Program-made: the position numbers and the translations under genes
Shown: piece after piece, positions 3,196 to 38,777 of the stretch
Layout: every line of letters starts with the position of its first letter
Position numbering within the stretch: the stretch's first letter is position 1
Notes under the pieces: model-generated
Told to the model about the DNA's origin: nothing
The model's database searches: none
Seen by the model: only the letters and a program-made list of their open reading frames with translations
NCBI GenBank assembly: GCA_017503575.1
Contig: JAFVSV010000022.1
Coordinates: forward strand, 1-42,346
Length of the DNA: 42,346 nt
Direction: 5' to 3'
Origin: Alistipes sp.
GTDB taxonomy: Bacteria > Bacteroidota > Bacteroidia > Bacteroidales > Rikenellaceae

Positions 3196-4962
3196 ATGAA
3201 GATACTGAAACTGATAGCCCTTCTGGCTGGCTCTGCGGCGATGTTCACAGCATGTAGTGTGGAGCAGGAGGAGGCCGCCCCAAAGGCGGAGAGTGTTGAG
3301 GTTGGCTTTGCGCTACCCGAAGAGGCTACCCGTACATCGCTTGACCCCGATGGTAAGACTACGCGTTGGGCACCTGGCGATAAGTTGGCAGTGTGGGCTA
3401 AGGGCGCAGATGGCGACTTTGTATTTGAGCATGCGCAGTTCACAATGCGCTACTACTCCGAGGAGTATAACCACGCCTACTTCACATCAAACATCGAGGC
3501 TATGGCTGATGGTGAGTACACCTATATGCTCTCATACCCCATGCCCACCTCGACAAATGGTACCCTCGCAACATATACGCTACCCGCAGAGCAGACGGGT
3601 GAGTATGATGGCCGTTACGATGTGATGCTTTCGGAGCCTGTTGTGGAGGGTGCGCTTAAGGCGAAGTCGACGGTTGAGTTTAACACCGTGATGCGTCATA
3701 AGATGCACGCCCTGAAGATTGCCGTTCCCGAGGGTCGTAACCTCTATGGAGAGCGCTTCTACCGCCTTGAGATAACGTTCCCTACGGCTGTTGTTGGTGA
3801 TATCACTATTGATGTTAGCGATCCCAACGAGGCGCCTGTTTACACAAATACCTCCAATAAGATTGTTGTCGAGAGTGCTGCGGGCTTCGATGCTGGTGAT
3901 GTTATCTGGGTGTATGTGCTTCCAGGTACTGTCGATGGCGATGTGAGCTACAAGGTGCGTGGCGAGCGTCGTAGCTCTAACACGGCAACCTACCAGCTTA
4001 GCCGTGAGATGAAGGAGGGGCATGTGACGCCTATCAATATGGCAATCCCTACCATCTATCCCTACTACACCTCGTTAATGCTCTCTGTCGACCAGAATAA
4101 TCTTGGTGAGGACTTCAACTTCATCGATGTCTACGACTCGAATGGCAACCACATGGGTAAGTTCGAGCGCAATGCCAAGAATGAGTACTTTATCGACTAC
4201 GAGGGTGAGTTCGATGCTGACCAGTACGATAACTCTACATGGCGCGTAGTCTTCGACTCGGAGCATGCTGTGGTGGAGACAACCATCAACCTCGGAGATA
4301 TGACCGACTACTCGGAGCATGTTTGCTGGATGAATGTACCTTATCTCTTCTCGGAGAACTTTAGCTCGCTTCGTACGTTCGATGGTGACTACACCAGTGG
4401 ACCTCATACGTCTGTCGACAACGCCTCTAAGGCAGGTCGTGATTTGTCTCAATATGGTGCAACTTCAGGTTGGACAGGTGCTCGTACAGGCTGTGACGCT
4501 GCGGGTACAGCAATCCTCGTTAGTGGTCGAACAGACTATGTTATTGCGGGAGCTACACGAGCATACGGTCGATTGGACTCTCCTGCACTGTCGGCAATCA
4601 AGCCAGACAAGGATGTGAAAGTGAAGGTAACATTCGACTATGGTGGTGGTCGCTCAGGCGGTAGCTGGGCTTATGCCATTGTAAAGGCTGGTTACACAAC
4701 GACTCAGGGCATTCTCAATGGTTATGCTACACAGTTTAACAACAACGCAGCGTTCTCGGGTATTGATGGAGCTGTTGAAGTCCCTAATATTCCCACTTCA
4801 GGCTCTGCTTCGGCTCTTACGTTGTCGATGTCATATAACATTGATGCTTGTACGTCGGCGCACCGTCTATCATGGCATATTGGTAGCTTAGGTACTACAT
4901 TTATCGGTAACGGCTATCAGTGGATATACGTTGACAATGTGAAGGTGCAAATAGTAAAATAG
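3196..4962 (+). CDS. Fimbrillin-like surface lipoprotein with C-terminal beta-sandwich
   Basis: A 588-aa lipoprotein with signal peptide and lipobox FTAC, so Cys20 is the probable lipidation site. The mature start SVEQEEAAP is acidic, as in exported Bacteroidetes lipoproteins. Residues about 30-280 resemble the fimbrillin family, including TRTSLDPDGKTTRWAPGDKL (45-64), the usual N-terminal fimbrillin strand that follows a T-R processing-like site. From about residue 380 a separate domain begins (LFSENFSSL... ending WIYVDNVKVQIV), which looks like a lectin or jelly-roll sandwich. It is the first gene of a seven-gene operon. Probable roles are fimbrial subunit, adhesin or glycan binding. The family call is fairly safe; the function is inference. 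Confidence 0.75.
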   Translation: MKILKLIALLAGSAAMFTACSVEQEEAAPKAESVEVGFALPEEATRTSLDPDGKTTRWAPGDKLAVWAKGADGDFVFEHAQFTMRYYSEEYNHAYFTSNIEAMADGEYTYMLSYPMPTSTNGTLATYTLPAEQTGEYDGRYDVMLSEPVVEGALKAKSTVEFNTVMRHKMHALKIAVPEGRNLYGERFYRLEITFPTAVVGDITIDVSDPNEAPVYTNTSNKIVVESAAGFDAGDVIWVYVLPGTVDGDVSYKVRGERRSSNTATYQLSREMKEGHVTPINMAIPTIYPYYTSLMLSVDQNNLGEDFNFIDVYDSNGNHMGKFERNAKNEYFIDYEGEFDADQYDNSTWRVVFDSEHAVVETTINLGDMTDYSEHVCWMNVPYLFSENFSSLRTFDGDYTSGPHTSVDNASKAGRDLSQYGATSGWTGARTGCDAAGTAILVSGRTDYVIAGATRAYGRLDSPALSAIKPDKDVKVKVTFDYGGGRSGGSWAYAIVKAGYTTTQGILNGYATQFNNNAAFSGIDGAVEVPNIPTSGSASALTLSMSYNIDACTSAHRLSWHIGSLGTTFIGNGYQWIYVDNVKVQIVK

Positions 4963-4999: not shown

Positions 5000-5770
5000 A
5001 TGAGAAAGCTTTTTACAATCGCTTCGCTCTTTGCGGTGGCTCTCTCGGCTTGTTCGAAGGAGGATGTAAAGGGTGATGAGAAGGGTGAAGGACAGGTATC
5101 TATCAGCTGTGTGACAATCACAGAGGTTGATGATACCCGTGCCAACGTAAGCTGCACAACCCCAGCAGCTGAGGATTTCGCTCTCAAGATTGAGGGCGTA
5201 GGTCACACCTACATCGCAGATTATGCGACTATTGCCGAGTTCAACGAGGGTGATAACTACCTGAACAACGGCACTTTCAAGGCTACCGTAACCGCAGGTG
5301 ACATCACCGAGGAGGGCTACGATAAGGCCACGTTCGTTGGTAGCGCTGAGTTTACAGTTGAGGCTCGCAAGAATACCGAGGTTGAGGTTAAGGCAACCAT
5401 CGCCAACGCTCTGGTTAAGGTTGAGGTAACCGACAACTTCAAGAGGTACTTTGAGGGTGGCCACACTCTTAAGCTAACAACTGCCGCAGGCAGCGAGTTT
5501 GACGTAACGGAGCAGACCGAGCCTTTGTTCATCGCTCCCGAGTCGTTCACCGTCTCTGGTACTGCCGTAAAGCAGCCTAACCAGTCGGGTGCCGAGGGTA
5601 CAACCGTTGCATTGCCAGAGTATAAGAATACAGATGCTAAGGCTCAGACTCTCTACACTGTAAAGCTCGATGTGGAGAATGCAGGTAGCGCTCAGCTCAC
5701 CATCACACTTAACGACGAGCTCGTTGAGTCGATTGATATCGAGCAGGAGCTTAACGATAACGCTAAATAA
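5000..5770 (+). CDS. DUF4493-type surface lipoprotein (short)
   Basis: A 256-aa lipoprotein with lipobox LSAC, Cys18. The sequence after the cysteine (SKED) resembles the S/K-D/E-rich lipoprotein export signal that sends Bacteroidetes lipoproteins to the cell surface. The body starts with G-E-G-Q-V-S-I-S, then a D-D-T-R motif (R47), F-x-L-K-I, and repeated beta strands, the layout of DUF4493. It is shorter than its neighbours and lacks the C-terminal Ig-like or PCMD region. Second gene of the operon, 37 bp after the first and 14 bp before the next. Likely a cell-surface structural or binding protein; no enzymatic motif is seen. Confidence 0.7.
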   Translation: MRKLFTIASLFAVALSACSKEDVKGDEKGEGQVSISCVTITEVDDTRANVSCTTPAAEDFALKIEGVGHTYIADYATIAEFNEGDNYLNNGTFKATVTAGDITEEGYDKATFVGSAEFTVEARKNTEVEVKATIANALVKVEVTDNFKRYFEGGHTLKLTTAAGSEFDVTEQTEPLFIAPESFTVSGTAVKQPNQSGAEGTTVALPEYKNTDAKAQTLYTVKLDVENAGSAQLTITLNDELVESIDIEQELNDNAK

Positions 5771-5784
5771 TAGGAGAAAAAGAT

Positions 5785-7431
5785 ATGAAATCAGTAGTTA
5801 AGATGATGGGTATAGCCTTGACCGCGCTCCTTACACTTGGAGCTTGCAAGAAGGACAAGGTGGATTACATTGACCCAAATGATTCAGCAAAGGCGAATGT
5901 CGGCTACTTGCTCGTAGGTGGCATGGAGGCCTCAGTATTGGAGGATACAGAGAATATCTCCTCTCCCGCGTCAACACGCGCCGAGGGTTATGATATCAAC
6001 ACTTTTGACGTAGTTATCACCAACAAGGCTGGTGAGCAGATGGCATCGTTTAAGTATGGCGAGCGTCCATCGGAGCCTATCGCCTTGGAGAGTGGTGTCT
6101 ACACTATTGCAATGTCATCAGCAAAGATGGAGGGTGCCGCATGGGAGTCTCCTGTATATGCAGGCGAGAAGGAGGTTGTTGTTACTCGTAAGCAGACAAC
6201 CGAGGTTAAGGACCTTGTGTGTAAGCTCGCTAACATCAAGGTTACCGTTGCTTACTCGGCAGACCTCGCCGAGCAGCTCGATGCAGATCACACAAAGATG
6301 ACCGTTGAGTTGGAGGATAGCGGCCTGGAGTACGCCTTCTCGGAGACACGCGCTGGTTACTTCGCTCCAGTGGCTGCCGATAACACTCTTAAGCTTACAT
6401 TCAACTGCCGTTATAAGGGTGAGACAAAGGATATCACCATGACCAACGAGATTAAGGGTGTTAAGGCTGCGCAGTGGCGTAAGATTAACGTTGTCGTTCA
6501 GCACGCTGCTGATGGTACCGCTACAATTGGTATCGTTTGCGACACTTGGACATACGATGAGGAGGTTACGTTCGACACCTCTGCATCACTTATGGAGGAG
6601 GTTATTCCTGATGATACCGACGCTCCAGTAATCGTATGGGAGGGTCACGACCTCGCAGAGCCATTTGAGCTTACCGACGATATGTTCGACGCCGAGGGTA
6701 ACTTTACATCAAGCATCAACGTCGACGTAACAGCTAAGGCTGCTATCAAGTCGTTGGTTGTTAAGGTGTCGTCAGACAATGCTGACTTCACTGCTGCATA
6801 CGCCGAGATTATGGCTTTGGAGGAGGACTTGTGCGCTCCTACTGCATCGAGCGCCATCCTCAAGATGATGGGCTACCCAACAGATGCTAAGGATGCAACA
6901 ACCACTCGCATCAAGTTCGCTTCGCAGGCCGCTATGCTCAAGTCGTACGAGGGTACTCACTCATACGAGATTACCGCAACCGACATCAACGGTGCTCACA
7001 CAACGGCAACACTTACTGTTCAGTATGGTCAGAACGTTGCTCCACGCATCGTATGGACTGGCTACGATATCGACAAGCAGCAGACATACGTTGCTGGTAT
7101 GACTTGCGATCTTGCAATCACCGCTCCATTGACAATTGCCGACCTTGGCGTTAAGATTATCTCTGCTACGCTTACTCCAGAGGAGCTTGCTGGCGTAGGC
7201 CTTGCTGGTGAGTTCAGCCTTGTCAACGATACTCAGTACTTTGAGTCGTTGAAGAACCTCGGCTTCCCAGTAGGTGATGAGGTGGCTGGTAAGACAGAGC
7301 TCGACCTAAGTATCACCAACTTCCTCGGTGTGCTTAATATGCTTGGCGCTGGCGACCACAACTTCCAGATTAGTGTCGTTGATGCCGAGGGTAATACAAC
7401 AACAAAGACCGTAATGATGCACTTCGAGTAG
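5785..7431 (+). CDS. DUF4493 lipoprotein with Ig-like C-terminal domains
   Basis: A 548-aa lipoprotein with lipobox LGAC (Cys21) followed by KKDK. Residues about 38-270 form a DUF4493-like domain: NVGYLLVGG, then TRAEGYDINTFDVVITN (64-80), SFKYGERPSEPIALESGVYT, and AGEKEVVVTRKQTTEVKDL, a pattern typical of this family. Two beta-rich segments follow, each opening with [DA]P-x-I-V-W (APVIVWEG, APRIVWTG), which look like tandem Ig-like repeats. Two in-frame ATGs near residue 7 could also serve as starts. It lies inside the seven-gene operon. Surface location is likely, function unknown. Confidence 0.75.
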   Translation: MKSVVKMMGIALTALLTLGACKKDKVDYIDPNDSAKANVGYLLVGGMEASVLEDTENISSPASTRAEGYDINTFDVVITNKAGEQMASFKYGERPSEPIALESGVYTIAMSSAKMEGAAWESPVYAGEKEVVVTRKQTTEVKDLVCKLANIKVTVAYSADLAEQLDADHTKMTVELEDSGLEYAFSETRAGYFAPVAADNTLKLTFNCRYKGETKDITMTNEIKGVKAAQWRKINVVVQHAADGTATIGIVCDTWTYDEEVTFDTSASLMEEVIPDDTDAPVIVWEGHDLAEPFELTDDMFDAEGNFTSSINVDVTAKAAIKSLVVKVSSDNADFTAAYAEIMALEEDLCAPTASSAILKMMGYPTDAKDATTTRIKFASQAAMLKSYEGTHSYEITATDINGAHTTATLTVQYGQNVAPRIVWTGYDIDKQQTYVAGMTCDLAITAPLTIADLGVKIISATLTPEELAGVGLAGEFSLVNDTQYFESLKNLGFPVGDEVAGKTELDLSITNFLGVLNMLGAGDHNFQISVVDAEGNTTTKTVMMHFE

Positions 7432-16820: not shown

Positions 16821-19800
16821 TTACTTCAACTCGCAATCAGTACCGTTAATCTTAACAGTGATCTCGTTGTGTGACCAGATGTAATCAAGGAAATCCTTAT
16901 AGTTCTCAGCAGTGTATGGTACACCATTGATAGTACAGTTATCGAACTTGTAAGTACCAGTTGTGCTGATGCAGTCGATCCACTCAGTAGAAGCTGAGCC
17001 GTCGAATGTGAACTCACAGTTCTTGAATGTTGTGCTACCCCAGAGGTTTGCGCCGTTGTATGCGCTTGGGCCATCCTTGAAAGTACAGCCATCGAATGTC
17101 AACTGAGTGATTGCACCAGCGAATGCGTTGAAGCCAGACAATACACAGTTCTTATAAGTTACATCGTTTGCACCACCATCGAAGTGAGCACCATAGAGGC
17201 TACCCTCGAACAAGCAGTTCTCGAAGTAGCAAGTCTCACCTGCGTAAGCCCAACGAAGACCGTTGCTACCTACGAAGTCGCAATCCTTGAATGAACCGTT
17301 GATAGTGCTGGTAGCAGCAGTATCACCAGGGTTAGAGAATGTTGCACCAACAACAGTTGAACCATTAATGTTCAAACCGCTCTTACCCTCAAATACAGTA
17401 CCCTCCTCGCAATAGATAGTTACATTCTTGCCAACCTTAGGGAATGTACCATAGTTGCCCTCAGCTACAACTACAGTCTCGCCCTCCTCCATCTTATCGA
17501 TGCTATCCTTAAGCTCTGCAGATGTTGTTGCAGGATCACCCTTGGTTACAACCCAGTTAGCACCATCCTTCTTAACAGTGCAACCAGCAGCTACCCAACG
17601 AGTAGGATTGAAGCCGAAAGTACCACCGTAGATGATAGTCTCGCCTGTGCCCAAGATACCATCAGTGTAGCCAGAACGTGTAGATGCCTTACCGAATGTA
17701 CCATCGTTGATAATAACCTTAGCGCCTGGGCCTGTGTATACATAAGCACGCTTCTGGTTGTCTGCAGGATCCCAGCTATATGAACCACCGTTTACGGTAA
17801 TAACAGAACCCTCACCATAAGCATAGAAGATATATCGACCGCTTGTGCTACTTGAATCAATATATGCAGAACCGCCATTGACAGTAACCTTAGAGCCATC
17901 AGCAGCAGCGATAGCACCACCACCAGAAACGATATTTGCATCATTAACTACAACCTCAGCACCCATATTTGCAATCAAGCCATAGTTAGAGGCATTACCC
18001 AAATTAAGATTATGGCCATCAGCGTTAAGAGTTACGTTGGTACCACTCGCCTGCAAGGTCTTATTCTCCTCTACATCAGCTGTAAATGAATAAGTACCAT
18101 CAGGAAGCATAACGATAAACTCCTTGCTATCATTGATATAATCAGCGATCTTATCTTCCTTAGGCATAACGATAACACGAACGGCAAGAGCATTAGCTAC
18201 GGTCTCTGTCTGTCCAGCATACGTGTTATTCTCGTCCTTGACGTTAGCATGCTTCCAACCGATAATTCTGCCAGCGTCAGCGGGCTTATCCTCCTTATAC
18301 TCAGCGGTCATATCAGCTGTGATATAAGAACTCTCAATATAGTTGCCAGTAACCTCAGCAGCGAGATTTGCAGCACCTACGATACCACCAACCTTGCGGT
18401 AAGCAGTGATCTTGGCATTCTTAACAGTACAGTCCTTAACCCAAGCTGTACCACCATCAGCTGCAAGGTAACCAGCGATAGCACCTACGTTGTTAGCGTC
18501 GTCCTTCTCATAAGGAGTAGACAAAACGATAGCGCCATCAACGTGGCAGTTCTCAATCTTAGTGCAGACAGCGTCAGCAACGATAACAGCAGCCTTGAAG
18601 TTACCATAAACCTCAGCGTTCAATACTGTAAGGTTCTTAATAGTTGCGCTGGGGCAGTAGCCGAACAAACCAGCAGATGCCTTACCTGTCTCGTAAACGA
18701 AGAGACCCTCGATCTTGTGGTTATTACCATCGAATGTGCCCTTGAATACGCCAGTTGCACCGATAGGCTCCCAAAGCTCGCCATTGAGGTGAATATCCTT
18801 TGCAAGCTTGATTGTCTCGCCTGCGAAGTCACGACCTGCAGCGCGAGTAGTGCCGTTTACCTGATCTGCAAACCAAGCAAGCTCAGATGCCTCACGAATG
18901 ATATAGGTCTTTGTAGCACTATCATACTCAGGCGTAGTAGCTGACTTACCATCCCAAAGGTTGAAGTAGTGGTTGCCAGCGAAGTTGTCGTCAACAGATA
19001 TCTCAATGTGAGTAGCAGTAGTAAGCACGTTACCGATAACGGTAGTGAGGTGGTTACGCTGTACTGGGATATCAGTATCGAAGTTGGTAGTCTTGATAAG
19101 GCCATCATCCTTGTCGTAAGCCGAAATCTCAAAGTGGATAGCCTCCTGCTCAGTCTCAGCAAGGATGTAGTCTGCCATAAGTGTCATGTGAGTGTGACGC
19201 TCAACGCCAGCAGCGCTTGTTGCCTTCTCAGCATCGTAACCTGCAGTGTAGGTGTGGTTTGCAAGACCGCCCTTCTCAACGTCCTTGTAGAGATCCTGGT
19301 AATTTACGGTGTACTCGTTTGTAGCGTACTCGCCAGAGATCTCACCTGTGATAGCGTTAAACTTATTAGCATGCTTTGCCTCGTACTTAACAACGAGCGT
19401 TTTAGGCTCAACATTGGTGTTAAGCTCGGCGAGGTCAGTAGCGATAACGCGAAGCTTTGCGTATGGACGACGCAAAACAATCTGCTCGGGCTTCGAGTTC
19501 TTAACATTCACATCCAAAGTTGCGAAGTAAGCATCGGCAATCTCGTCGTTAAGAGCATCTTTCTTAACTGTGATGGTCTCCAAGGTGTCGCCAATGTCGT
19601 GGCGCAAACCAAGGTTTGCCTGTGCACCAGCATTGTGCAGGTAAGTGTCGGTAAGAACATCGTTAGCTACGAAGTCAGCGAATACTACGAAGTGGTAGTC
19701 GCGGTTAGGAGCCAAACGAAGGTCGAAAGTTACAGGCTCGTACTTGTCAACGATGATAACCATACGATCCTTTACAGGTGTCTTGCCTGCATAGTCGTCA

Positions 19801-20081
19801 GCCTTGTCGTAAACCTCCAAAGTGTAACGGAGGTTAACGTCGTTCCAATCCCAACGCAAATCGTCCTTAGACTCCTTCATGTAGTCGATAGCGCCATAAG
19901 CACTGTCGTAGTCGTTCTGTGAGTCGCCATCGAGAGCACGGGTCTGTGCAAGCTCGGGAGCAGCTACAGAGAGCTGGAAGTCAACCTCGCCCTTGCCACC
20001 AGGGGTAACAGTGTCGACATCCTGCGTACATGATGCCAATCCAAGCACCAATGCCGCCAAAGCTAAAAATCTTGCTTTCAT
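16821..20081 (-). CDS. Large surface lipoprotein with DUF6562-like, GLUG and beta-helix regions
   Basis: 1086 aa with signal peptide and lipobox LASC (Cys18), then TQDVD. Residues about 30-370 resemble the fimbrillin-related DUF6562 fold (GEVDFQLSVAAPELAQTRAL, later DYHFVVFADFV and LRRPYAKLRVIATDL). The next region (about 385-620) holds GLUG-type repeats (ASAGLFGYCPSATIKNLTVL; NVGAIAGYLAADGG; VGGIVGAAN). From about 650 to the end, short strands with regular N and G residues (VTVNGGSAYI, ITVNGGSYSW, VIINDGTFG, TFDGCTFKDG, TFKNCEFTF) indicate a right-handed beta-helix. A surface adhesin or glycan-binding stalk is likely; no polysaccharide-lyase catalytic residues are identifiable. It has a long leader containing a C9 tract. 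Confidence 0.75.
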   Translation of the reverse strand: MKARFLALAALVLGLASCTQDVDTVTPGGKGEVDFQLSVAAPELAQTRALDGDSQNDYDSAYGAIDYMKESKDDLRWDWNDVNLRYTLEVYDKADDYAGKTPVKDRMVIIVDKYEPVTFDLRLAPNRDYHFVVFADFVANDVLTDTYLHNAGAQANLGLRHDIGDTLETITVKKDALNDEIADAYFATLDVNVKNSKPEQIVLRRPYAKLRVIATDLAELNTNVEPKTLVVKYEAKHANKFNAITGEISGEYATNEYTVNYQDLYKDVEKGGLANHTYTAGYDAEKATSAAGVERHTHMTLMADYILAETEQEAIHFEISAYDKDDGLIKTTNFDTDIPVQRNHLTTVIGNVLTTATHIEISVDDNFAGNHYFNLWDGKSATTPEYDSATKTYIIREASELAWFADQVNGTTRAAGRDFAGETIKLAKDIHLNGELWEPIGATGVFKGTFDGNNHKIEGLFVYETGKASAGLFGYCPSATIKNLTVLNAEVYGNFKAAVIVADAVCTKIENCHVDGAIVLSTPYEKDDANNVGAIAGYLAADGGTAWVKDCTVKNAKITAYRKVGGIVGAANLAAEVTGNYIESSYITADMTAEYKEDKPADAGRIIGWKHANVKDENNTYAGQTETVANALAVRVIVMPKEDKIADYINDSKEFIVMLPDGTYSFTADVEENKTLQASGTNVTLNADGHNLNLGNASNYGLIANMGAEVVVNDANIVSGGGAIAAADGSKVTVNGGSAYIDSSSTSGRYIFYAYGEGSVITVNGGSYSWDPADNQKRAYVYTGPGAKVIINDGTFGKASTRSGYTDGILGTGETIIYGGTFGFNPTRWVAAGCTVKKDGANWVVTKGDPATTSAELKDSIDKMEEGETVVVAEGNYGTFPKVGKNVTIYCEEGTVFEGKSGLNINGSTVVGATFSNPGDTAATSTINGSFKDCDFVGSNGLRWAYAGETCYFENCLFEGSLYGAHFDGGANDVTYKNCVLSGFNAFAGAITQLTFDGCTFKDGPSAYNGANLWGSTTFKNCEFTFDGSASTEWIDCISTTGTYKFDNCTINGVPYTAENYKDFLDYIWSHNEITVKINGTDCELK

Positions 20082-31453: not shown

Positions 31454-31483
31454 GCGGCCTGCTCTTCGGAGTAGGCCGCTTTT
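31454..31483 (+). terminator. Terminator of the SusCD operon
   Basis: An 11-bp stem with one G-T pair (GCGGCCTGCTC / GAGTAGGCCGC) around a stable TTCG tetraloop is followed by TTTT. Confidence 0.9.
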
Positions 31484-31677: not shown

Positions 31678-33723
31678 ATGAAGAAGGTTAAATTATCATT
31701 GTTTGCCTTGGCTGCAATCTTCGCAGTATCGTGTGTGCAGGATCCTACAATGGAGGAGTCAACCGATAATGTGCAGGTGAGTGCTACCAAGAAGATTATC
31801 AACACCGCGGATAATGCCAATGCTGGTGAGCTTATCCTCTATGTTGATGAGGAGACTGCCGACCTATGGGCTAATGCCGAGTCTGTGACACGTTCGGGTA
31901 ACGCTAACCTCGACGCTTTGGCTGCCGAGCTTGGTGCTACATCTATCGAGCCTGTATTTAACATGAATATCAATGGCGAGGAGAAGCGCGCTATGGGCTT
32001 GCACCGCTGGTATGCCGTAGAGTTCGACAAGGAGGCAGATATTCAGGTCGCTGCCGATAAGTTCGCCTCAATGAAGGAGGTAAACCGCGTCCAGTACTCT
32101 ACAATATTGGTGCGTCCTGAGATTACCGCTACGCCTGTACAGGAGATGCCCGCTACACGCGCTGACGAGGCGATGCCTTTCAATGACCCTATGCTCGAGC
32201 TTCAGTGGCACTACCACAATCAGGGCTTGAAGGCTCTGTTCCCTGGCGCAAAGGCTGGTGAGGATATCAACGCCTTCGCTGCATGGAAGTACACCACAGG
32301 TCGTAACGACATCATCGTAGCTGTTATGGACGAGGGCGTTAAGTACAACCACCCCGACCTTGAGGCTAACATGTGGGTTAACGAGGCAGAGAAGAATGGC
32401 GCCGAGGGTGTCGATGACGATAAGAATGGCTTTGTTGACGATATCTATGGCATCAACTGCGTCGATGAGAGTGGCAATATCTCGTGGGATGTCCCAGCAT
32501 ACAATAGCGATGGTGACTATGTGGGTGATTCTGGTCATGGTACGCACGTTGCAGGTACTGTTGCTGCTGTGAACAACAATGGCATTGGTGTTGCTGGCGT
32601 TGCAGGTGGCTCGGGCAATGGCAATGGTGTGCGCATCATGTCTATCCAGATCTTCGACGGCCCAGACAACAGTTCTGCAAAGCAGAATGCACGCGGTATC
32701 CAGTATGCCGCAGATAATGGCGCTTGTATCCTCCAGAACTCATGGGGTTATCCAAACTCACAGTTCAAGGACTCTGATTATGAGCAGGCTATGAGCGCCG
32801 AGTGCGATGCATTGCGCTACTTTGCAAAGCAGAGTGGCTGCTCGGCAATGAAGGGTAATGTTGTCATCTTCGCTGCGGGTAACAGTGGTAAGGCTACATC
32901 TGACTATCCTGGTGCTTATAACGAGTTTATCTCTGTAACAGCATACGCTCCCGATGGCCTCCCAACATCATACACCAACTACAATTTAGGCTGTAATGTA
33001 GCCGCTCCTGGTGGTGATACATGGGCGCAGGATCGCCAGTGGAAGGACGAGGGTACTGTACTCTCGACAATTCCATCGGAGACTATCGATCCCTTAACAA
33101 AGGCTCCTTATGGCTCTGACTACGGCTATATGCAGGGTACATCTATGGCGTGTCCTCATGTGTCGGGTGTAGCAGCTCTCGTGTTGTCGTATGCTGTGGA
33201 GAATGGCATCACCCTTACTAACACACAGCTCTACGATATCCTTACATCGTCGGTACGCAACATCGACAACTCTCTTACGGGTACAGTGACCCGATGGGAT
33301 GCTTACGGCAGGGCGTTCAACATGAACCTCGATAGCTACAAGGGTAACATGGGTACTGGTAAACTCGATGCGCTGATGGCTATCCAGGCTGTGCGCGGCG
33401 ATATCTGCATCCCTGTGGTTGTTGGTAAGGAGTTTGAGCTTCACCCCAATATGGTGATTGGTAATGGTGACATCAGCGTTAAGGGTCTTGATGGTTACAC
33501 AATCTCGGACGATACAAAGAAACGCCTTGGCATCGAAAAGATTGATACATTCAACGGCAAGTTCTATTTCACATGTAAGAATGCTGGCATTGGTGTTATC
33601 ACCATCCAGTATATTGCAGGTGGCAACAAGGTCGGTGGCGGTAACACCACTGGCGGTAAGCTAATGGAGAAGGATGTCGTTATCGTTGCTCGTGATAACA
33701 ACGTTGCTGGCGGCTGGTTCTAA
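31678..33723 (+). CDS. S8 subtilisin-like serine protease lipoprotein (module 1)
   Basis: 681 aa; lipobox AVSC gives Cys19. A propeptide covers about residues 30-165 with a Fervidolysin-type inhibitor-like fold (NAGELILYVDEETADLW, HRWYAVEFD). The catalytic domain has Asp218 in VAVMDEG, His287 in GHGTHVAGT, oxyanion Asn402 in AAGNSG and Ser489 in GTSMACPHVSG. The Ca-like loop GVDDDKNGFVDDIYG sits at 244-258. After the catalytic domain a ~100-residue C-terminal region ends glycine-rich (AGGNKVGGGNTTGGK) and finishes VAGGWF. Nearby T-R-[SA] motifs at 71-73 and 160-162 suggest processing. It belongs to a two-gene unit with the small lipoprotein that follows. Confidence 0.93.
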   Translation: MKKVKLSLFALAAIFAVSCVQDPTMEESTDNVQVSATKKIINTADNANAGELILYVDEETADLWANAESVTRSGNANLDALAAELGATSIEPVFNMNINGEEKRAMGLHRWYAVEFDKEADIQVAADKFASMKEVNRVQYSTILVRPEITATPVQEMPATRADEAMPFNDPMLELQWHYHNQGLKALFPGAKAGEDINAFAAWKYTTGRNDIIVAVMDEGVKYNHPDLEANMWVNEAEKNGAEGVDDDKNGFVDDIYGINCVDESGNISWDVPAYNSDGDYVGDSGHGTHVAGTVAAVNNNGIGVAGVAGGSGNGNGVRIMSIQIFDGPDNSSAKQNARGIQYAADNGACILQNSWGYPNSQFKDSDYEQAMSAECDALRYFAKQSGCSAMKGNVVIFAAGNSGKATSDYPGAYNEFISVTAYAPDGLPTSYTNYNLGCNVAAPGGDTWAQDRQWKDEGTVLSTIPSETIDPLTKAPYGSDYGYMQGTSMACPHVSGVAALVLSYAVENGITLTNTQLYDILTSSVRNIDNSLTGTVTRWDAYGRAFNMNLDSYKGNMGTGKLDALMAIQAVRGDICIPVVVGKEFELHPNMVIGNGDISVKGLDGYTISDDTKKRLGIEKIDTFNGKFYFTCKNAGIGVITIQYIAGGNKVGGGNTTGGKLMEKDVVIVARDNNVAGGWF

Positions 33724-33756: not shown

Positions 33757-34224
33757 ATGAAAAGTTTGAAGATATGGTCATTGGCGGTGGTGCTGCTTAT
33801 GGCAATGGTAGGATGCGATAAAAATCCCGATGACGAAGGTAAGAAGCCACAGCAAATAGGCGGCTTTGATGGCATAGAGAAGGAGTGGAAGCTCGTGTCG
33901 GTAAACGATGTACCTGCAGATTTCAATGTTTATGTCCAGTTCGAGTCGGGTATGTTCGCCATGTACCAGCAGGTATATTCCCACGACTATAAGTTCTATG
34001 AGGGAGAGTACGAGATCAATGGTGATAAATTGTCGGGTAGCTACTTCGACGAGGGTGGCTGGAGATGCGACTATAAAGGTGGCGTATCGAGCGATGGCAA
34101 GTCGTTGATTCTTACGAGCGTAGAGGACAACCCTATCACTTGCGTATATGAGGAGTGCACAATTCCCCAGGAGGTGAAGGATGAGGCGTTGACACGTTCT
34201 GTGGAGGTTGTTCCTTTCCTATAA
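33757..34224 (+). CDS. Small lipocalin-like lipoprotein paired with S8 protease (module 1)
   Basis: 155 aa; lipobox MVGC (Cys20) followed by DKNPDDEG. The core, residues about 38-130, has the strand order of lipocalin-like/DUF5004-type Bacteroidetes lipoproteins (EKEWKLVSVNDVPADFNVYV, QQVYSHDYKFYEGEYEINGD). The C-terminus is TRSVEVVPFL, shared with the paralogue at 36526. It starts 33 bp after the protease stop and likely shares its transcript. Two copies of the same protease-lipoprotein pair make a functional link likely: inhibitor, chaperone or substrate. No direct evidence of inhibition. Confidence 0.8.
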   Translation: MKSLKIWSLAVVLLMAMVGCDKNPDDEGKKPQQIGGFDGIEKEWKLVSVNDVPADFNVYVQFESGMFAMYQQVYSHDYKFYEGEYEINGDKLSGSYFDEGGWRCDYKGGVSSDGKSLILTSVEDNPITCVYEECTIPQEVKDEALTRSVEVVPFL

Positions 34225-34311
34225 TTTTCGATTATAAGGCCGCATCTGCGACCTTCTAATCAATAATTGAATTTAAGATTATATTGGGCCTCATTGGCCC
34301 ACCCTAAGCAT

Positions 34312-34348
34312 AATCCCGAAGGCTAAGCACTATCCTTCGGGATTTCTT
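34312..34348 (+). terminator. Terminator of protease module 1
   Basis: An 11-bp perfect stem AATCCCGAAGG / CCTTCGGGATT (34312-34322 with 34334-34344) is followed by TCTTTG. A second small hairpin (GGGCC/GGCCC) lies at 34286-34300. Confidence 0.8.
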
Positions 34349-34425
34349 TGTGCGATAGATAAAAATCTGTTCTTTGCGACAACTCTATTTTATTAGCTAA
34401 ACTCTTCCGATTCAAGTTTTTTTTG

Positions 34426-34433
34426 TATATTTG
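34426..34433 (+). promoter_or_regulatory. -7 promoter element of S8 protease module 2
   Basis: TATATTTG matches TAnnTTTG. The 20 bp from 34426 to 34445 are identical to the module 1 promoter, while the surrounding leader differs, pointing to shared control of the two modules. Confidence 0.75.
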
Positions 34434-34497
34434 CATCTTGAGAGATTGTTAATTAGGCAATCATCCTTAAATGCGTAAACATTTAACTTAAACTACT

Positions 34498-36495
34498 ATG
34501 AATAGAACTAAACTCTTTATTCTTGCTTTGATGGGGGTATGCTTGGCATCATGTACCACTGACAACGTCGACGAGCCCCAGTCAGCCTCTCCCGAGGCAA
34601 TAGCGGCAAAGAAGTTTGTGAACACCTCGGCAGATGCTATCGAGGGTGAACTTATCATCTATGTCGATGAGGCTACCGCCTTGCAGCTCGAGGGCGCAGA
34701 GGTGGCTACACGTTCGGGTGTATCGTCGCTCGACGCATTCGCAGCAGAGGTTGGCGCTACGGCGATTAAGCCTGTCTTCAACCTTAAGGTTAATGCCGAG
34801 CGTAAGCGTGCGCTCGACATGCACCGCTGGTATACGGTATCTTTCCCCGCAGAGGAGAACCTCGATGAGGCAGCACAGCGCCTTGCACAGTGCGAGGTCG
34901 TAGAGCTTGTGCAGTTTGCAACGCGTATCGCACAGCCAAAGGTTACTGCAACAGAGATAAACCTCGACGAGGTGGCTACAACGCGTGTGGCGGATATGCC
35001 TTTCGACGATACGCTGCTTCCCAAGCAGTGGCACTATAACAATGATGGTACTGTCGACTTCCCTAATGCAAAGGCTGGCGCCGATATCAACCTCTTCGCT
35101 GCGTGGGAGCTTACGACAGGTCGTCCCGATGTTGTCGTAGCGATTGTTGATGAGGGTGTATGCTACACTCACAAGGACCTTCAGCCAAATATGCACGTTA
35201 ATGAGGCCGAGCAGAATGGCGAAGAGGGTGTTGATGACGATAATAATGGCTATGTTGACGACGTCTATGGCTACAACTTCGTTGACAATGGCCGTATTAC
35301 TTGGACTCGTAATGGCGATGGTGGTCACGGTACTCACGTTGCAGGTACTGTTGCTGCCGTAAACAACAATGGCATTGGTGTCGCTGGTGTCGCTGGTGGC
35401 TCGGGCAATGGCGATGGCGTACGCATCTTCTCATGCCAGATTATCTCGGGTGGTAATGCTGCTGGTGTAAATGCTACTGCTGCGGCTGTTGAGTATGCTG
35501 CCGACCGTGGCGCTTGCATTTTGCAGAACTCTTGGGGCTTTAACGCAGGTGATATTGCCAACGACAATATGTTTGAGACCGGCCAAACAAGCGTTGAGTG
35601 GAAGGCGTTCCAGTACTTCATGTCAACGAAGAATCATCCCAACCTTGAGGGTGGTATCATCATCTTCGCTGCGGGTAACGATGGTAAGGCTTATGCTGGC
35701 TATCCAGCCGCATACAACAAGCTTATCGCAGTGTCGGCTATTGGCGCTGATGGCAATCCTACATACTACACTTGCTACGACCGTGGCTGTAATGTGACGG
35801 CTCCTGGTGGTGAGTACTTCCGCCGTAACGGCTCGACGGTGGAGAGTGGCTGTGTGGTTTCGACATTGCCTGGCGATAAGTATGCTCTCATGCAGGGTAC
35901 ATCAATGGCGTGTCCTCATGTTTCGGGTATTGCCGCCTTGGCTATATCTTATGCTGCTGACAACGGCATCGTGCTTACACTCTCAGAGCTTAAGGATATC
36001 ATCGTCTCTTCAGCATCTGGCCTCAAGTTCGAGGGTACGAAGTCAAACTACGGGACTAATGGCACGATGAATCTCCAAGTATATAACAACAAGATGGGTA
36101 CAGGTCTCATCGACGCATATCGCGTGTTGATGGCCGTTCGTGGTACTACATGTATTCCTATACCACTTGGCGAGCAGGCTATCCTCGATATCAACTACTA
36201 CATCGGCGATGGCAACCTTCAGGTAAAGATGCTTGAGTCAACCATCTCGGACGAGGTTAAAGATAAGCTCGGTATCACTGACTGCCGCTTTATGGGTAGC
36301 AAGCTTCTTCTCACATGTACAAAGCCTGGTACAGCTCTCGTGACATTGAAGTATATTGCTGGTGGTAACACCGCTGGTGGTGGCCAGATTACTGGTGGTA
36401 TGGAGGCAGAGCAGGAGTTTGCCTTTGTGGTTCGTCCAGGTATTAAGGTCGATGAGGGTACTGGCGCTCCTATCGTTCCTGGTGGCTGGTTGTAA
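34498..36495 (+). CDS. S8 subtilisin-like serine protease lipoprotein (module 2)
   Basis: 665 aa; lipobox LASC (Cys19). It is a close paralogue of the module 1 protease with the same order: propeptide to about 168, Asp218 in VAIVDEG, His277 in GHGTHVAGT, Asn394 in AAGNDG and Ser469 in GTSMACPHVSG. The stretch around GGHGTHVAGTVAAVNNNG and the following GVAGVAGGSGNG is nearly identical between the two. It lacks about ten residues in the loop before His. The C-terminus is again glycine-rich (AGGNTAGGGQITGG) and ends PGGWL. All catalytic residues are present, so it should be active. Surface or periplasmic protein degradation or processing is inferred. Confidence 0.93.
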   Translation: MNRTKLFILALMGVCLASCTTDNVDEPQSASPEAIAAKKFVNTSADAIEGELIIYVDEATALQLEGAEVATRSGVSSLDAFAAEVGATAIKPVFNLKVNAERKRALDMHRWYTVSFPAEENLDEAAQRLAQCEVVELVQFATRIAQPKVTATEINLDEVATTRVADMPFDDTLLPKQWHYNNDGTVDFPNAKAGADINLFAAWELTTGRPDVVVAIVDEGVCYTHKDLQPNMHVNEAEQNGEEGVDDDNNGYVDDVYGYNFVDNGRITWTRNGDGGHGTHVAGTVAAVNNNGIGVAGVAGGSGNGDGVRIFSCQIISGGNAAGVNATAAAVEYAADRGACILQNSWGFNAGDIANDNMFETGQTSVEWKAFQYFMSTKNHPNLEGGIIIFAAGNDGKAYAGYPAAYNKLIAVSAIGADGNPTYYTCYDRGCNVTAPGGEYFRRNGSTVESGCVVSTLPGDKYALMQGTSMACPHVSGIAALAISYAADNGIVLTLSELKDIIVSSASGLKFEGTKSNYGTNGTMNLQVYNNKMGTGLIDAYRVLMAVRGTTCIPIPLGEQAILDINYYIGDGNLQVKMLESTISDEVKDKLGITDCRFMGSKLLLTCTKPGTALVTLKYIAGGNTAGGGQITGGMEAEQEFAFVVRPGIKVDEGTGAPIVPGGWL

Positions 36496-36525
36496 TATTG
36501 TTAACGCATAAAATTAGAACGAGAT

Positions 36526-36975
36526 ATGAAGAAGTTTTTTGCAGTTTTTGCAATCGTAGCACTCGCCTTGGTCGGTTGCGAGAAGAACCCCGACAATAGT
36601 GGTCAGGGAGGCGGTAGTAATAGCGCTATCGATGGTCAGTGGCATATCACCGAGTGGAATGGCGAGGCTCCCGAGTTCGATGTATATATCAAGTTTGAGA
36701 AGGGCGCCTTCGAGATCTACCAGCAGGTGTGGACACTCGATTATGAGCTATTCAAGGGCACATTTAAGATTAGTGGCAACATCGTAACAGGCTCATACGA
36801 GAATGGCTCTAACTGGGCTTCGGGCTATAAGTTTGCGGTTGAGGGCGACATACTCACCATGCACAGCCAGGAGGATCAGAGTGTGACCAGCGTTTACGAG
36901 AAGTGTGAGATTCCTGCTGAGATTATCACAGAGGCTACAACAACGCGTGCTGCGGAGGTTGTTCCTTTCTTGTAA
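36526..36975 (+). CDS. Small lipocalin-like lipoprotein paired with S8 protease (module 2)
   Basis: 149 aa; lipobox LVGC (Cys18) followed by EKNPDNSG. It aligns throughout with the module 1 small lipoprotein: DGQWHITEWNGEAPEFDVYI, QQVWTLDYELFKGTFKISGN, SVYEKCEIPAEI. The tail is TTRAAEVVPFL, compared with TRSVEVVPFL in the paralogue. It begins 30 bp after the protease stop and is followed by a terminator-like hairpin. Inferred to work with the S8 protease; the mode is unknown. Confidence 0.8.
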   Translation: MKKFFAVFAIVALALVGCEKNPDNSGQGGGSNSAIDGQWHITEWNGEAPEFDVYIKFEKGAFEIYQQVWTLDYELFKGTFKISGNIVTGSYENGSNWASGYKFAVEGDILTMHSQEDQSVTSVYEKCEIPAEIITEATTTRAAEVVPFL

Positions 36976-36997: not shown

Positions 36998-37032
36998 GGG
37001 GTGATTCCTGCGTGGGAGTTACCCCTTTTTTT
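36998..37032 (+). terminator. Terminator or attenuator just before the C10 protease gene
   Basis: GGGGTGATTCC can pair over 11 positions (two G-T wobbles) with GGAGTTACCCC and is followed by seven T. The T run ends only five bases before the ATG of the C10 protease gene, and no TAnnTTTG element lies between. The C10 gene may therefore depend on read-through, or on a promoter I cannot see. Confidence 0.75.
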
Positions 37033-37037
37033 AGACG

Positions 37038-38777
37038 ATGAAGAGACTACTTATAATTGCTGCCCTCGCTGTTGTGTCCATCTGTGGGGCGGTGGCCAAG
37101 GAGATACCATCAACTGTGGCGCTTGACATAGCGCGTGGCGTGTTGGGCGATGCTACGCGAGGCACGGATGTCGTTGTGGCGTGGGATAGCCATGCGCTCG
37201 GCACGACGCGAGGAGGTGATGCCCCAACGTTCTATGTTATTACCCCAACATCGGGTGTGGGCTTTGTTATCGTCGCTGGTGACGATAGGGTAGCGCCCGT
37301 ATTGGCATACTCTACACGCTACACAATCGCCGACGAGGATATGCTACCTCCCAACTTTGCAGGATGGTTAGTGTATGTTGATGATGCTGTGAAGTATGTC
37401 CGCGAGAACGACATTGCTGCTGACGAGGCTACGGCGCGACTATGGTCCGAACTGTATGTGCCAACCAATGCTACGCTACTTAACACTGCTCGTTGGAGTC
37501 AGTATCAGCCATATAATAAGTACTGCCCACTTGATGATGGAGCACTCTCGCTAACGGGTTGTACGCAGACGGCAATGGCTATTATCATGCACTACAACCG
37601 CTGGCCAGCGGAGGCGCAGGGTACGACCGTGCCATTTACGACATCCACAAAGGGTCTCGATGTCCCCGCGCGCGACCTAAACCACAAGTACGATTGGGAT
37701 AATATGCTCTATGAGTATGTCGAGGGTGAGTATAGCGATGCTGAGGGCGATGCTGTGGCGGTGCTTATGGCTGACCTCGGCCACTCGTTCCAGGCTGACT
37801 ATTCGGCAATTAGCACGGCGGCATTTCCTAATAATGTGGCGATGTACGAGAACTATGGTTATAGCCCTTCGTGCTATATTGCTATGCGCGACTACTACTC
37901 TGCGGAGAGTTGGAACGCTCTGTTGCGTAGTGAGATAGATGCTAATAGACCTATCTTTTATAGCGCTTATACCGCTGATGAGGCAGGTCACGCCTTCGTA
38001 ATAGATGGCTATGATGCGAACGACTACTTCCATGTCAATTGGGGTTGGGGCGGCATGAGCGATGGCTTTTTTAAGATTGAGGGGCTTGTTCTCGAGGAGT
38101 ATGTCTTCGACACGATGCACTGGGCATTTCTCGGTATTCACCCTGTGCGTGATGGTGAGATTGACAATTGGATATATCTATCGGCACCTGGTATGACAAC
38201 CCAGACCAAGGAGTTCGAGACGGGTGTATCGTTTGTGATTGACGGTATCTCGATAGCTAACCCTGCGGTTGTCAACTTCGATGGCGAGGTGCGCGTGGGA
38301 GTCTGCGATATTGAGGGTGAGTTTAAGTCGTGGGCGTCGGATGCAGTCGCCTTCTCGCTCGACTCGGGCTATGCCACCTCGGTGGTAAATATCACAGCAC
38401 AGGTCGAGGATGAGATTTTGTCAGGCGATAGGCTACGAGCATTCTATCGCGCCAAGAGTGGTGATAAGTGGCATTTGATGATGCCATACGCCGATAACAC
38501 CCAGTGGGAGATTGTCTTGAAGCACCCATCTATTGGCGATACTACCTCGCTAAAGTTCGATAAGACTACTGGGCTGATGACTATTACGCACGACGAGGAT
38601 GTCATCGCGACGCTCAATATGCTCGGTAGTGTTGTGGAGAGTGGCGTTGAGACAACATCTCGCTTGTTGATTATTGATACCAACATCCTCAATCACAAGG
38701 ATTTGTACACCATCTACTTGGAGCATGAGAGTAGTGGCGAGAGTAAGAGCTATACATTTACACTTAACGACTTGTAG
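37038..38777 (+). CDS. C10-family (streptopain-like) cysteine protease
   Basis: 579 aa with a type I signal peptide (MKRLLIIAALAVVSICGAVA). Residues about 22-145 are the Spi-type propeptide (PTFYVITPTSGVGFVIVAGD, NFAGWLVYVDDA). The mature enzyme follows at LLNTARWSQYQPYNKYCP. Catalytic Cys175 is in LTGCTQTAMAIIM and His318 in AGHAFVIDGYD, with the HVNWGWGG motif after it. The C-terminal ~190 residues are beta-rich, probably a secretion or Ig-like region. T-R-G motifs at 40-42 and 57-59 lie in the propeptide. It sits at the end of the S8 protease modules. Likely secreted and self-activating. Confidence 0.92.
   Translation: MKRLLIIAALAVVSICGAVAKEIPSTVALDIARGVLGDATRGTDVVVAWDSHALGTTRGGDAPTFYVITPTSGVGFVIVAGDDRVAPVLAYSTRYTIADEDMLPPNFAGWLVYVDDAVKYVRENDIAADEATARLWSELYVPTNATLLNTARWSQYQPYNKYCPLDDGALSLTGCTQTAMAIIMHYNRWPAEAQGTTVPFTTSTKGLDVPARDLNHKYDWDNMLYEYVEGEYSDAEGDAVAVLMADLGHSFQADYSAISTAAFPNNVAMYENYGYSPSCYIAMRDYYSAESWNALLRSEIDANRPIFYSAYTADEAGHAFVIDGYDANDYFHVNWGWGGMSDGFFKIEGLVLEEYVFDTMHWAFLGIHPVRDGEIDNWIYLSAPGMTTQTKEFETGVSFVIDGISIANPAVVNFDGEVRVGVCDIEGEFKSWASDAVAFSLDSGYATSVVNITAQVEDEILSGDRLRAFYRAKSGDKWHLMMPYADNTQWEIVLKHPSIGDTTSLKFDKTTGLMTITHDEDVIATLNMLGSVVESGVETTSRLLIIDTNILNHKDLYTIYLEHESSGESKSYTFTLNDL

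Follow-up and report, generated by a model that had tools for sequence, protein, structure and literature searches.

In a 42,346-nucleotide contig of Alistipes sp. (JAFVSV010000022.1, assembly GCA_017503575.1; this whole stretch is hereafter the window), two genes for subtilases of family S8 (S8-1 and S8-2) are each followed by a gene for a small lipocalin-like lipoprotein (LIP; here LIP1 and LIP2). We found that gene order and genome content both tie the LIP family to the S8 family, that LIPs end in a conserved C-terminal tail, and that, judging by the aligned sequences, what this tail has in common with the pro/catalytic junction of the proteases is T-[R/K]-[A/S], not the PF half. We tentatively propose that LIP may be a dedicated, anchored inhibitor or guard of S8, comparable to the potempins of Tannerella forsythia, whose flexible tail would engage the protease or be cut by it; we take this to be a real possibility that falls short of being probable.

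LIP is linked to an S8 clade in gene order and genome content

The comparison covered the window and 80 stretches hand-picked from profile matches, which together hold 121 LIPs and 114 S8s; one stretch (L120) only extends another. Most of the compared genomes are assemblies of varying completeness, and counts over relatives are non-independent except in the tree-based pairs. LIP lay directly downstream of S8 in 123 of 152 LIP open reading frames (ORFs), with a median gap of 30 bp. Among 180 congeneric genomes, 152 carried both families, six only S8, two only LIP and 20 neither, the overlap being counted from the listed positives and the negatives by exclusion. In three of the S8-only genomes (G128, G157 and G163) the complete S8s end in VIKK or IIKR, and the further matches there are cut or open. 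A tailless LIP relative was present after all in G053, the S8 of G178 ends in NGWL near a contig end, and the match in G006 runs off the fetched stretch. Relatives of LIP were found in 131 of the congeneric genomes with a two-sequence profile and in 154 with a 74-sequence profile; beyond the genus they are sparse: among 393 genomes of the order, 12 had a relative, one of these being the window genome.

When loci were chosen by S8 alone, with at least 700 bp of downstream sequence (n = 60), 15 held a LIP, all beside an S8 ending in W-L, and the other 45 had neither LIP nor the W-L ending (Fisher 8.6e-13 for W-L ending versus LIP, with one S8 ending in GAWL counted against the association). The LIP scored there as lacking a GWL partner adjoins the S8-1 of L140, which is the GAWL protease, and L151, with 599 bp downstream, was omitted. 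Many of the 45 S8s without LIP are distant, some of them from other phyla, and the association of LIP with S8 is one at the level of the clade, not a count of independent events.

A C-terminal tail is conserved in the LIP family

The original prediction had stated that both lipoproteins of the window end in T-R-x-x-E-V-V-P-F-L, and direct reading and a script gave the same result (TRSVEVVPFL and TRAAEVVPFL). LIP1 and LIP2 are paralogues with 43% identity, so the two window tails are not independent observations. Checked among homologues, as had been suggested, the tail proved to be a family trait. TR occurred within the last 22 residues of 94 of the 121 LIPs and was followed by exactly eight residues in 67 of these 94; the residue after TR was A in 44 and S in 37 (81/94). 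Leu was the final residue in 111 LIPs and Phe the penultimate one in 96, and an aromatic-Leu ending was present in 98/121, compared with 3 of 256 other ORFs of the sampled loci. These tail counts are conditioned on the presence of LIP, and near-identical copies were kept in. VVPFL is the form of the near relatives of the window LIPs, and other LIPs end in ERFL, EHFL, RWL and the like. Overall, the form of the tail is mostly T-[R/K]-[A/S]-x(3-8)-[aromatic]-Leu-COOH, past the globular part of the protein, and the ending stays at the very C-terminus even in LIPs with long spacers (L074, L076) or extra N-terminal parts (L101-L115).

These unusual forms deserve a brief description. In L074 and L076 long low-complexity spacers (TEGGDGTEG-like or TPE-rich) lie between barrel and tail, TR is missing and the protein ends in GVPFL. 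The LIPs of L101-L115 are large (about 400-540 aa), have an additional N-terminal part ahead of the lipocalin-like domain, keep the tail and at times stand in tandem pairs.

With regard to the rest of the protein, a Cys (Cys20) behind the signal peptide was invariant in the LIP alignment (A3). LIP2 scored 24.4 bits and LIP1 20.0 bits against PF13648 (Lipocalin_4), whose curated cut-off is 22.4, and LIP1 matched no Pfam family at E up to 0.001. A Lipocalin_4 match at E up to 0.01 was obtained for 62 of 74 LIPs, this family being a broad one, and at that threshold the 74 LIPs together hit 11 families, none of them an I9 or propeptide domain.

The tail and the protease junction share T-[R/K]-[A/S]

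Both proteases matched PF00082 (E 5.5e-48 for S8-1 and 8.1e-44 for S8-2) and the PF16361 propeptide (1.2e-30 and 1.1e-25), and both carry a lipobox. The catalytic residues are complete (D218/H287/N402/S489 in S8-1 and D218/H277/N394/S469 in S8-2, positions read by script), where the Asp, His and Ser are presumed to form the triad, in line with the subtilase motifs. D218, H287, N402 and S489 (S8-1 numbering) were invariant in the S8 alignment (A4), as was Cys19. Most proteases of the clade combine T-[R/K]-[A/S] at the pro/catalytic boundary with G-W-[LMF] at the C-terminus, W standing at position -2 in 112 of the 114; a near-invariant Arg (R672 in S8-1) lies at least nine residues ahead of the C-terminal end. 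The aromatic-Leu tail of LIP also resembles this GW[LMF] ending of the protease itself, a likeness that the original prediction did not mention.

The junction segments named by the original prediction, TRADEAMPF (residues 160-168 of S8-1) and TRVADMPF (162-169 of S8-2), were recovered by script; that of module 1 has the spacing of the tail, as claimed, and that of module 2 is one residue shorter. The catalytic domain opens with a conserved (P)FNDPxLxxQWH stretch, to which the PF of the junction belongs. Several subtilase chains in solved structures (deseasin MCP-01, BprV, mirolase and others) start some three positions ahead of the F168/N169 equivalent, with the proviso that such chain starts may reflect constructs. 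By homology to these chains, the TR-containing stretch is probably close to the pro/mature boundary, which agrees with the predicted position of the maturation site.

The nine-residue form TRxx[DE]x[AVILMF]PF was found at the tail of 33 of the 121 LIPs and in 3 of the 114 S8s; the other ORFs of the same set, 265,084 residues in all, did not contain it once, which marks it as an uncommon word. In only two adjacent pairs was it carried by LIP and S8 alike; together with its rarity in S8s, this shows that the exact spacing match of module 1 is not kept among relatives. For the pairwise comparison, 104 of the 123 adjacent pairs were kept after removal of copies and of pairs without a recognisable junction; in the pair and arrangement counts, rows with identical last 60 residues were removed (L140 is the same DNA as L056, and L141 equals L076). 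From TR to the aromatic residue, 65 junctions showed a distance of 6 residues and 59 tails one of 7; in 17 pairs both partners had the same distance. The junction had TR in 93 of the 104 pairs, and in 81 of these 93 the next residue was A or S.

Over all 104 pairs, the likeness of a tail to its own partner's junction exceeded that in shuffles (0/5000 as high). Within groups no partner-specific likeness was detected, as 1255 of 5000 shuffles were as high in the tail-P group and 866 of 5000 in the rest, so the likeness is one of groups, not of partners. Co-evolution of the PF half was likewise rejected: in raw counts P in the tail went with P at the junction (Fisher p 1.8e-6), but this vanished in tree-independent pairs, the S8 tree showing 8 changes of tail P and 10 of junction P without concordance, and tails ending in RFL or RWL occur beside PF junctions.

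The identity of the basic, P1-like residue was then compared in 107 pairs (L143, L144 and L114 added). Six of them were unscored; the junction of L114 was entered as "-", the tail of L147 (VKSL) lies outside the scoring stretch and was left unscored, and where a tail held both K and R, the one following T or S was taken. The 101 scored pairs, given as junction-tail, comprised 92 R-R, 5 K-K, 4 R-K and no K-R (Fisher 1.6e-6); that is, K at the junction went with K in the tail in 5/5 and R with R in 92/96. The six tail changes that gave tree-independent pairs were distributed as 3.0 in the same direction, 0 opposite and 3.0 without a difference (p 0.25). R/K identity of T-[R/K]-[A/S] thus appears to tend to switch in both partners, a suggestive trend that is not significant. 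The presence of TR points the same way more weakly: at junction and tail it changed 7-8 times each, and of seven independent pairs 1.5 went the same way, 5.5 showed no difference and none was opposite. Taken together, the predicted likeness of the tail to the protease's maturation site stood for T-[R/K]-[A/S], present as TR in 93/104 junctions and 94/121 tails, and failed for the PF half and for partner-specific copying of the whole segment. The predicted covariation was seen in the raw counts and in the R/K trend, and was absent for P with P in tree-independent pairs.

Distribution of TR and of the C-terminal endings

The ratio of observed to expected TR was 2.37 in S8 and 2.03 in LIP, both counted over related sequences, as against 0.88 in the other lipoprotein-like ORFs (n = 43) and 0.93 in the remaining ORFs (n = 127). 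Over the whole length, a general processing of exported proteins at Arg was unsupported, although within residues 20-120 the other lipoproteins reach 1.46. As for enzymes that could cut after TR, two C11 proteases (clostripain-type) are encoded in the window genome; the search for a gingipain-type C25 protease found none, and its control was silent too. S8 itself may be the TR-cleaving enzyme.

We also searched the window genome for the endings followed by a stop and obtained 22 GW[L/F] and 23 [P/R]F[L/F] hits, among which the ORFs of at least 100 aa were three S8s and two LIPs. Shorter hits included a 51-aa ORF (L242) and two ORFs antisense to longer real genes (L265, 95 aa; L266, 84 aa). The search covered TAA and TGA stops, leaving out TAG and the GFL ending of a third tailed LIP, in a genome that is 78% complete. 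A proteome-wide sorting signal is ruled out for this genome as far as the ending patterns reach. In most loci with a tailless LIP, the S8 keeps GWL or GWM, which argues for mutual independence of the two tails.

The cassette and its surroundings

The cassette is a duplicated protease-partner module in which each S8 lipoprotein protease has its own lipocalin-like lipoprotein downstream (Table 1). The gene order is a SusC-like gene, a SusD gene (by Pfam), a large lipoprotein, S8-1, LIP1, S8-2, LIP2, a C10 peptidase and a BACON protein; the SusC-like gene is putative, and the large lipoprotein had no Pfam match. The S8-LIP-S8-LIP cassette is bracketed by two terminator-like hairpins, of which the region holds nine compared with 5.4 +/- 1.9 in shuffles. 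Arrays of three to four S8 genes with interspersed LIPs were seen in L052, L067 and L068, which suggests that duplication acts on the module as a whole.

Table 1. Positions in the window of the S8-LIP cassette, its sequence motifs and the flanking hairpins.
Feature	Position	Strand	Description
Terminator-like hairpin ahead of cassette	31454-31479	+	11-pair stem, then T-rich run; by consensus match only
S8-1	31678-33723	+	Lipoprotein-type subtilase; PF16361 propeptide, PF00082 catalytic domain; C-terminus AGGWF
S8-1 pro/catalytic junction	32155-32181	+	TRADEAMPF, residues 160-168; read by script
LIP1	33757-34224	+	155 aa, lipocalin-like lipoprotein; starts 33 bp past S8-1
LIP1 C-terminal tail	34192-34221	+	TRSVEVVPFL (T146); read directly and by script
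S8-2	34498-36495	+	Second subtilase of the cassette; PF16361 and PF00082 matches; C-terminus PGGWL
S8-2 junction	34981-35004	+	TRVADMPF, residues 162-169; read by script
LIP2	36526-36975	+	149 aa, lipocalin-like lipoprotein; starts 30 bp past S8-2
LIP2 C-terminal tail	36943-36972	+	TRAAEVVPFL (T140); read directly and by script
Terminator-like hairpin past LIP2	36998-37025	+	12-pair stem, then TTTTTTT; by consensus match only

Two further observations concern the neighbourhood. The C10 peptidase downstream of the cassette (37038-38777) carries a fused Spi-type inhibitor domain (I69) and has TRG at residues 40 and 57. TR also occurs soon after the signal peptide in lipoprotein-like ORFs of the window at 3196-4962 (EEATRTSL), 5000-5770 (VDDTRANV), 5785-7431 (ASTRAEGYD) and 16821-20081 (AQTRALDG).

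Comparison with known protease inhibitors

The Inh/SmaPI (I38) inhibitors of serralysins are small beta-barrel proteins encoded beside their protease, and a terminal tail of theirs enters the cleft; they differ from LIP in that this tail is the N-terminal rather than the C-terminal one and the target is a metalloprotease. Among the potempins, PotE is an eight-stranded barrel, and these proteins are known to block their enzymes by loops rather than tails. The LIP profile matched Potempin E (8ehd) weakly, with E 2.7e-4 when the signal peptide was included and 0.0021 (probability 13.5%) without it. Spi (I69) of C10 proteases is likewise a dedicated inhibitor, one being fused to the C10 peptidase of this gene run, although it belongs to a different Pfam family and acts on a different protease class.

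Excerpts of two papers describe Bacteroidales that keep small lipoprotein inhibitors, the potempins, beside secreted proteases (PMC7296668, PMC4404884); in T. forsythia these are paired with secreted proteases and inhibit the co-expressed one, for which the excerpt refers to then-unpublished data (PMC7296668). LIP resembles them as a small lipoprotein encoded beside a secreted protease (directly after S8 in 123/152), and its sequence match to Potempin E is weak. In contrast to potempins, the LIP gene lies downstream and not upstream of the protease, S8-1 and S8-2 end in GGWF and GGWL instead of KLIKK, the S8 partner is itself a lipoprotein, and LIP has a conserved C-terminal tail.

A second precedent comes from subtilase propeptides, which, according to excerpts of PMC6993865 and PMC10580911, stay on the enzyme once they have been cut off, their C-terminal tails occupying the substrate groove; stand-alone propeptide-like inhibitors can act similarly, the tail being helpful and not essential in the case of SUB1. 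These I9 inhibitors (MEROPS; POIA1, the yeast proteinase B inhibitor and SUB1-ProM) are dedicated subtilase inhibitors whose C-terminal region can enter the active-site groove, and the SUB1-ProM gene adjoins subtilase genes, as LIP does (same excerpts). LIP differs from them in scoring as lipocalin-like and in a tail that ends in -FL and holds a T-R/K-A/S site. The literature searched, which included few subscription papers and was judged on titles and the start of abstracts, gave no account of such a protease-lipoprotein pair.

Proposed role of LIP and alternative explanations

The potempin and propeptide precedents, together with the weak match to Potempin E, are the reason why LIP is taken here as a potempin-like partner of S8. 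According to this proposal, LIP would be an anchored lipoprotein that inhibits or guards its S8 as the T. forsythia potempins do, and its flexible tail would enter or lie along the substrate cleft, as the C-terminal end of a subtilase propeptide does. The tail might be cut at T-[R/K]|[A/S] by the activity that splits the S8 boundary, either S8 itself or a clostripain-type C11 protease, and such a cut would make inhibition releasable. One may go further and imagine that protease and guard carry matching short C-terminal tails, that the T-[R/K]|[A/S] cut couples zymogen activation with loss of inhibition, that the -FL octapeptide is released at the cell surface, and that the propeptide trick was gained on an unrelated lipocalin-like fold; this fuller picture we consider unlikely.

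Several observations weigh against LIP as such an inhibitor. The tail was found in none of nine LIPs in an S8-x-LIP arrangement (S8 400-1500 bp upstream of LIP), including L139, where the fourth S8 of the genome (contig C58) ends in NGIL and is followed by a 262-aa protein and then a tailless LIP; to that extent the tail conservation called for by the original prediction fails. Moreover, even among the 118 LIPs that immediately follow an S8, 14 depart from the strict tail pattern, and hence the tail can at times be dispensed with. The tie of the tail to a protease neighbour, implied by the original prediction, held in that LIPs are mostly S8-adjacent (123/152) and broke down in three tailed LIPs without S8 in the fetched stretch (L105, L116, L118). 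In the arrangement count these three were among six tailed LIPs entered as having no S8 in the locus; of the others, L143 and L114 really adjoin an S8 (false upstream start) and L104 is cut by a contig end, and eight further rows without S8 are distant lipocalin-like proteins without the tail. At what we take to be the 166-equivalent of the S1 region, the S8s (n = 102) have G in 41, D in 19, S in 16, C in 10 and other residues in the remainder; the tail holds to TR in spite of this variation, an argument against the partner S8 as the source of the TR preference. The R/K co-change rests on few independent events, with the five K-K pairs lying outside Alistipes and four Alistipes pairs breaking the match. 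In residues 20-120, TR is in excess not only in other lipoproteins but also in other ORFs (1.43), and the S8 and LIP ratios come from related sequences. Finally, the match to Potempin E is weak, and the partner of PotE is forsilysin, described in the excerpts as a metalloprotease (PMC7296668, PMC4404884).

The main rivals to the inhibitor proposal are a shared cleavage site and docking of the tails. An Arg/Lys-specific surface protease could cut both the S8 boundary and the LIP tail without any inhibition by the latter, which would then be removable or yield a free peptide some eight residues long, in this case [A/S]xxEVVPFL, that the neighbouring SusCD-like system might import. The eight residues that so often follow TR (67/94 TR-bearing LIPs), the R/K co-change of junction and tail, the two C11 proteases and the upstream SusD and presumed SusC-like genes would all suit such a course of events; however, TR is not enriched over the whole length of other lipoproteins (0.88) and no reason is evident for a waste peptide to keep its -FL end, and we regard this explanation as doubtful. 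Docking would mean that the aromatic-Leu C-termini of S8 (GWL) and LIP (FL) are ligands of a single pocket, either the partner's or that of a third protein, with a role in assembly, retention or surface display and not in inhibition. It would account for the W at -2 in 112/114 S8s and the aromatic-Leu end in 98/121 LIPs, for the S8s that lack both the W-L ending and LIP, and for the finding that the patterns hit no other long ORF of the genome. Yet a tailless LIP mostly shares its locus with an S8 that has retained GWL or GWM, shared ancestry of the clade explains the association equally well, and a general sorting signal would be expected on other proteins too, leaving docking with a low probability in our judgement.

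A tailored decoy, with the tail reproducing in full its own protease's TRxx[DE]x-hydrophobic-PF segment, was suggested by the exact spacing match of module 1, the raw tail-P/junction-P association and the likeness to the own partner (0/5000 shuffles). Against it stand the two pairs only in which both partners carry the nine-residue form, the absence of partner-specific likeness within groups and of concordance in independent pairs, and the place of PF at the conserved start of the S8 catalytic domain; its PF half is largely refuted and the decoy as a whole is very unlikely. Equally, LIP might be an ordinary solute- or cell-surface-binding lipocalin-like lipoprotein co-expressed with the proteases, its tail being a strand or plug of its own barrel, as the match of 62/74 LIPs to the broad Lipocalin_4 family and the tailed LIPs that stand alone would allow. 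This is highly improbable in view of the co-occurrence of LIP with S8 and of the long low-complexity spacers in L074 and L076, which are ill-suited to a barrel strand.

If LIP does inhibit its S8, commensal Alistipes and their relatives would possess a potempin-like attack-and-guard system for subtilases, in which the gene order and the protease C-terminus differ from the system of the oral pathogen and the tail-based device would be new. T-[R/K]-[A/S]-x(3-8)-FL is a short, testable motif of small proteins for which Pfam has no label beyond lipocalin-like, and it offers a route to asking how gut Bacteroidales stop surface proteases from harming their own envelope.

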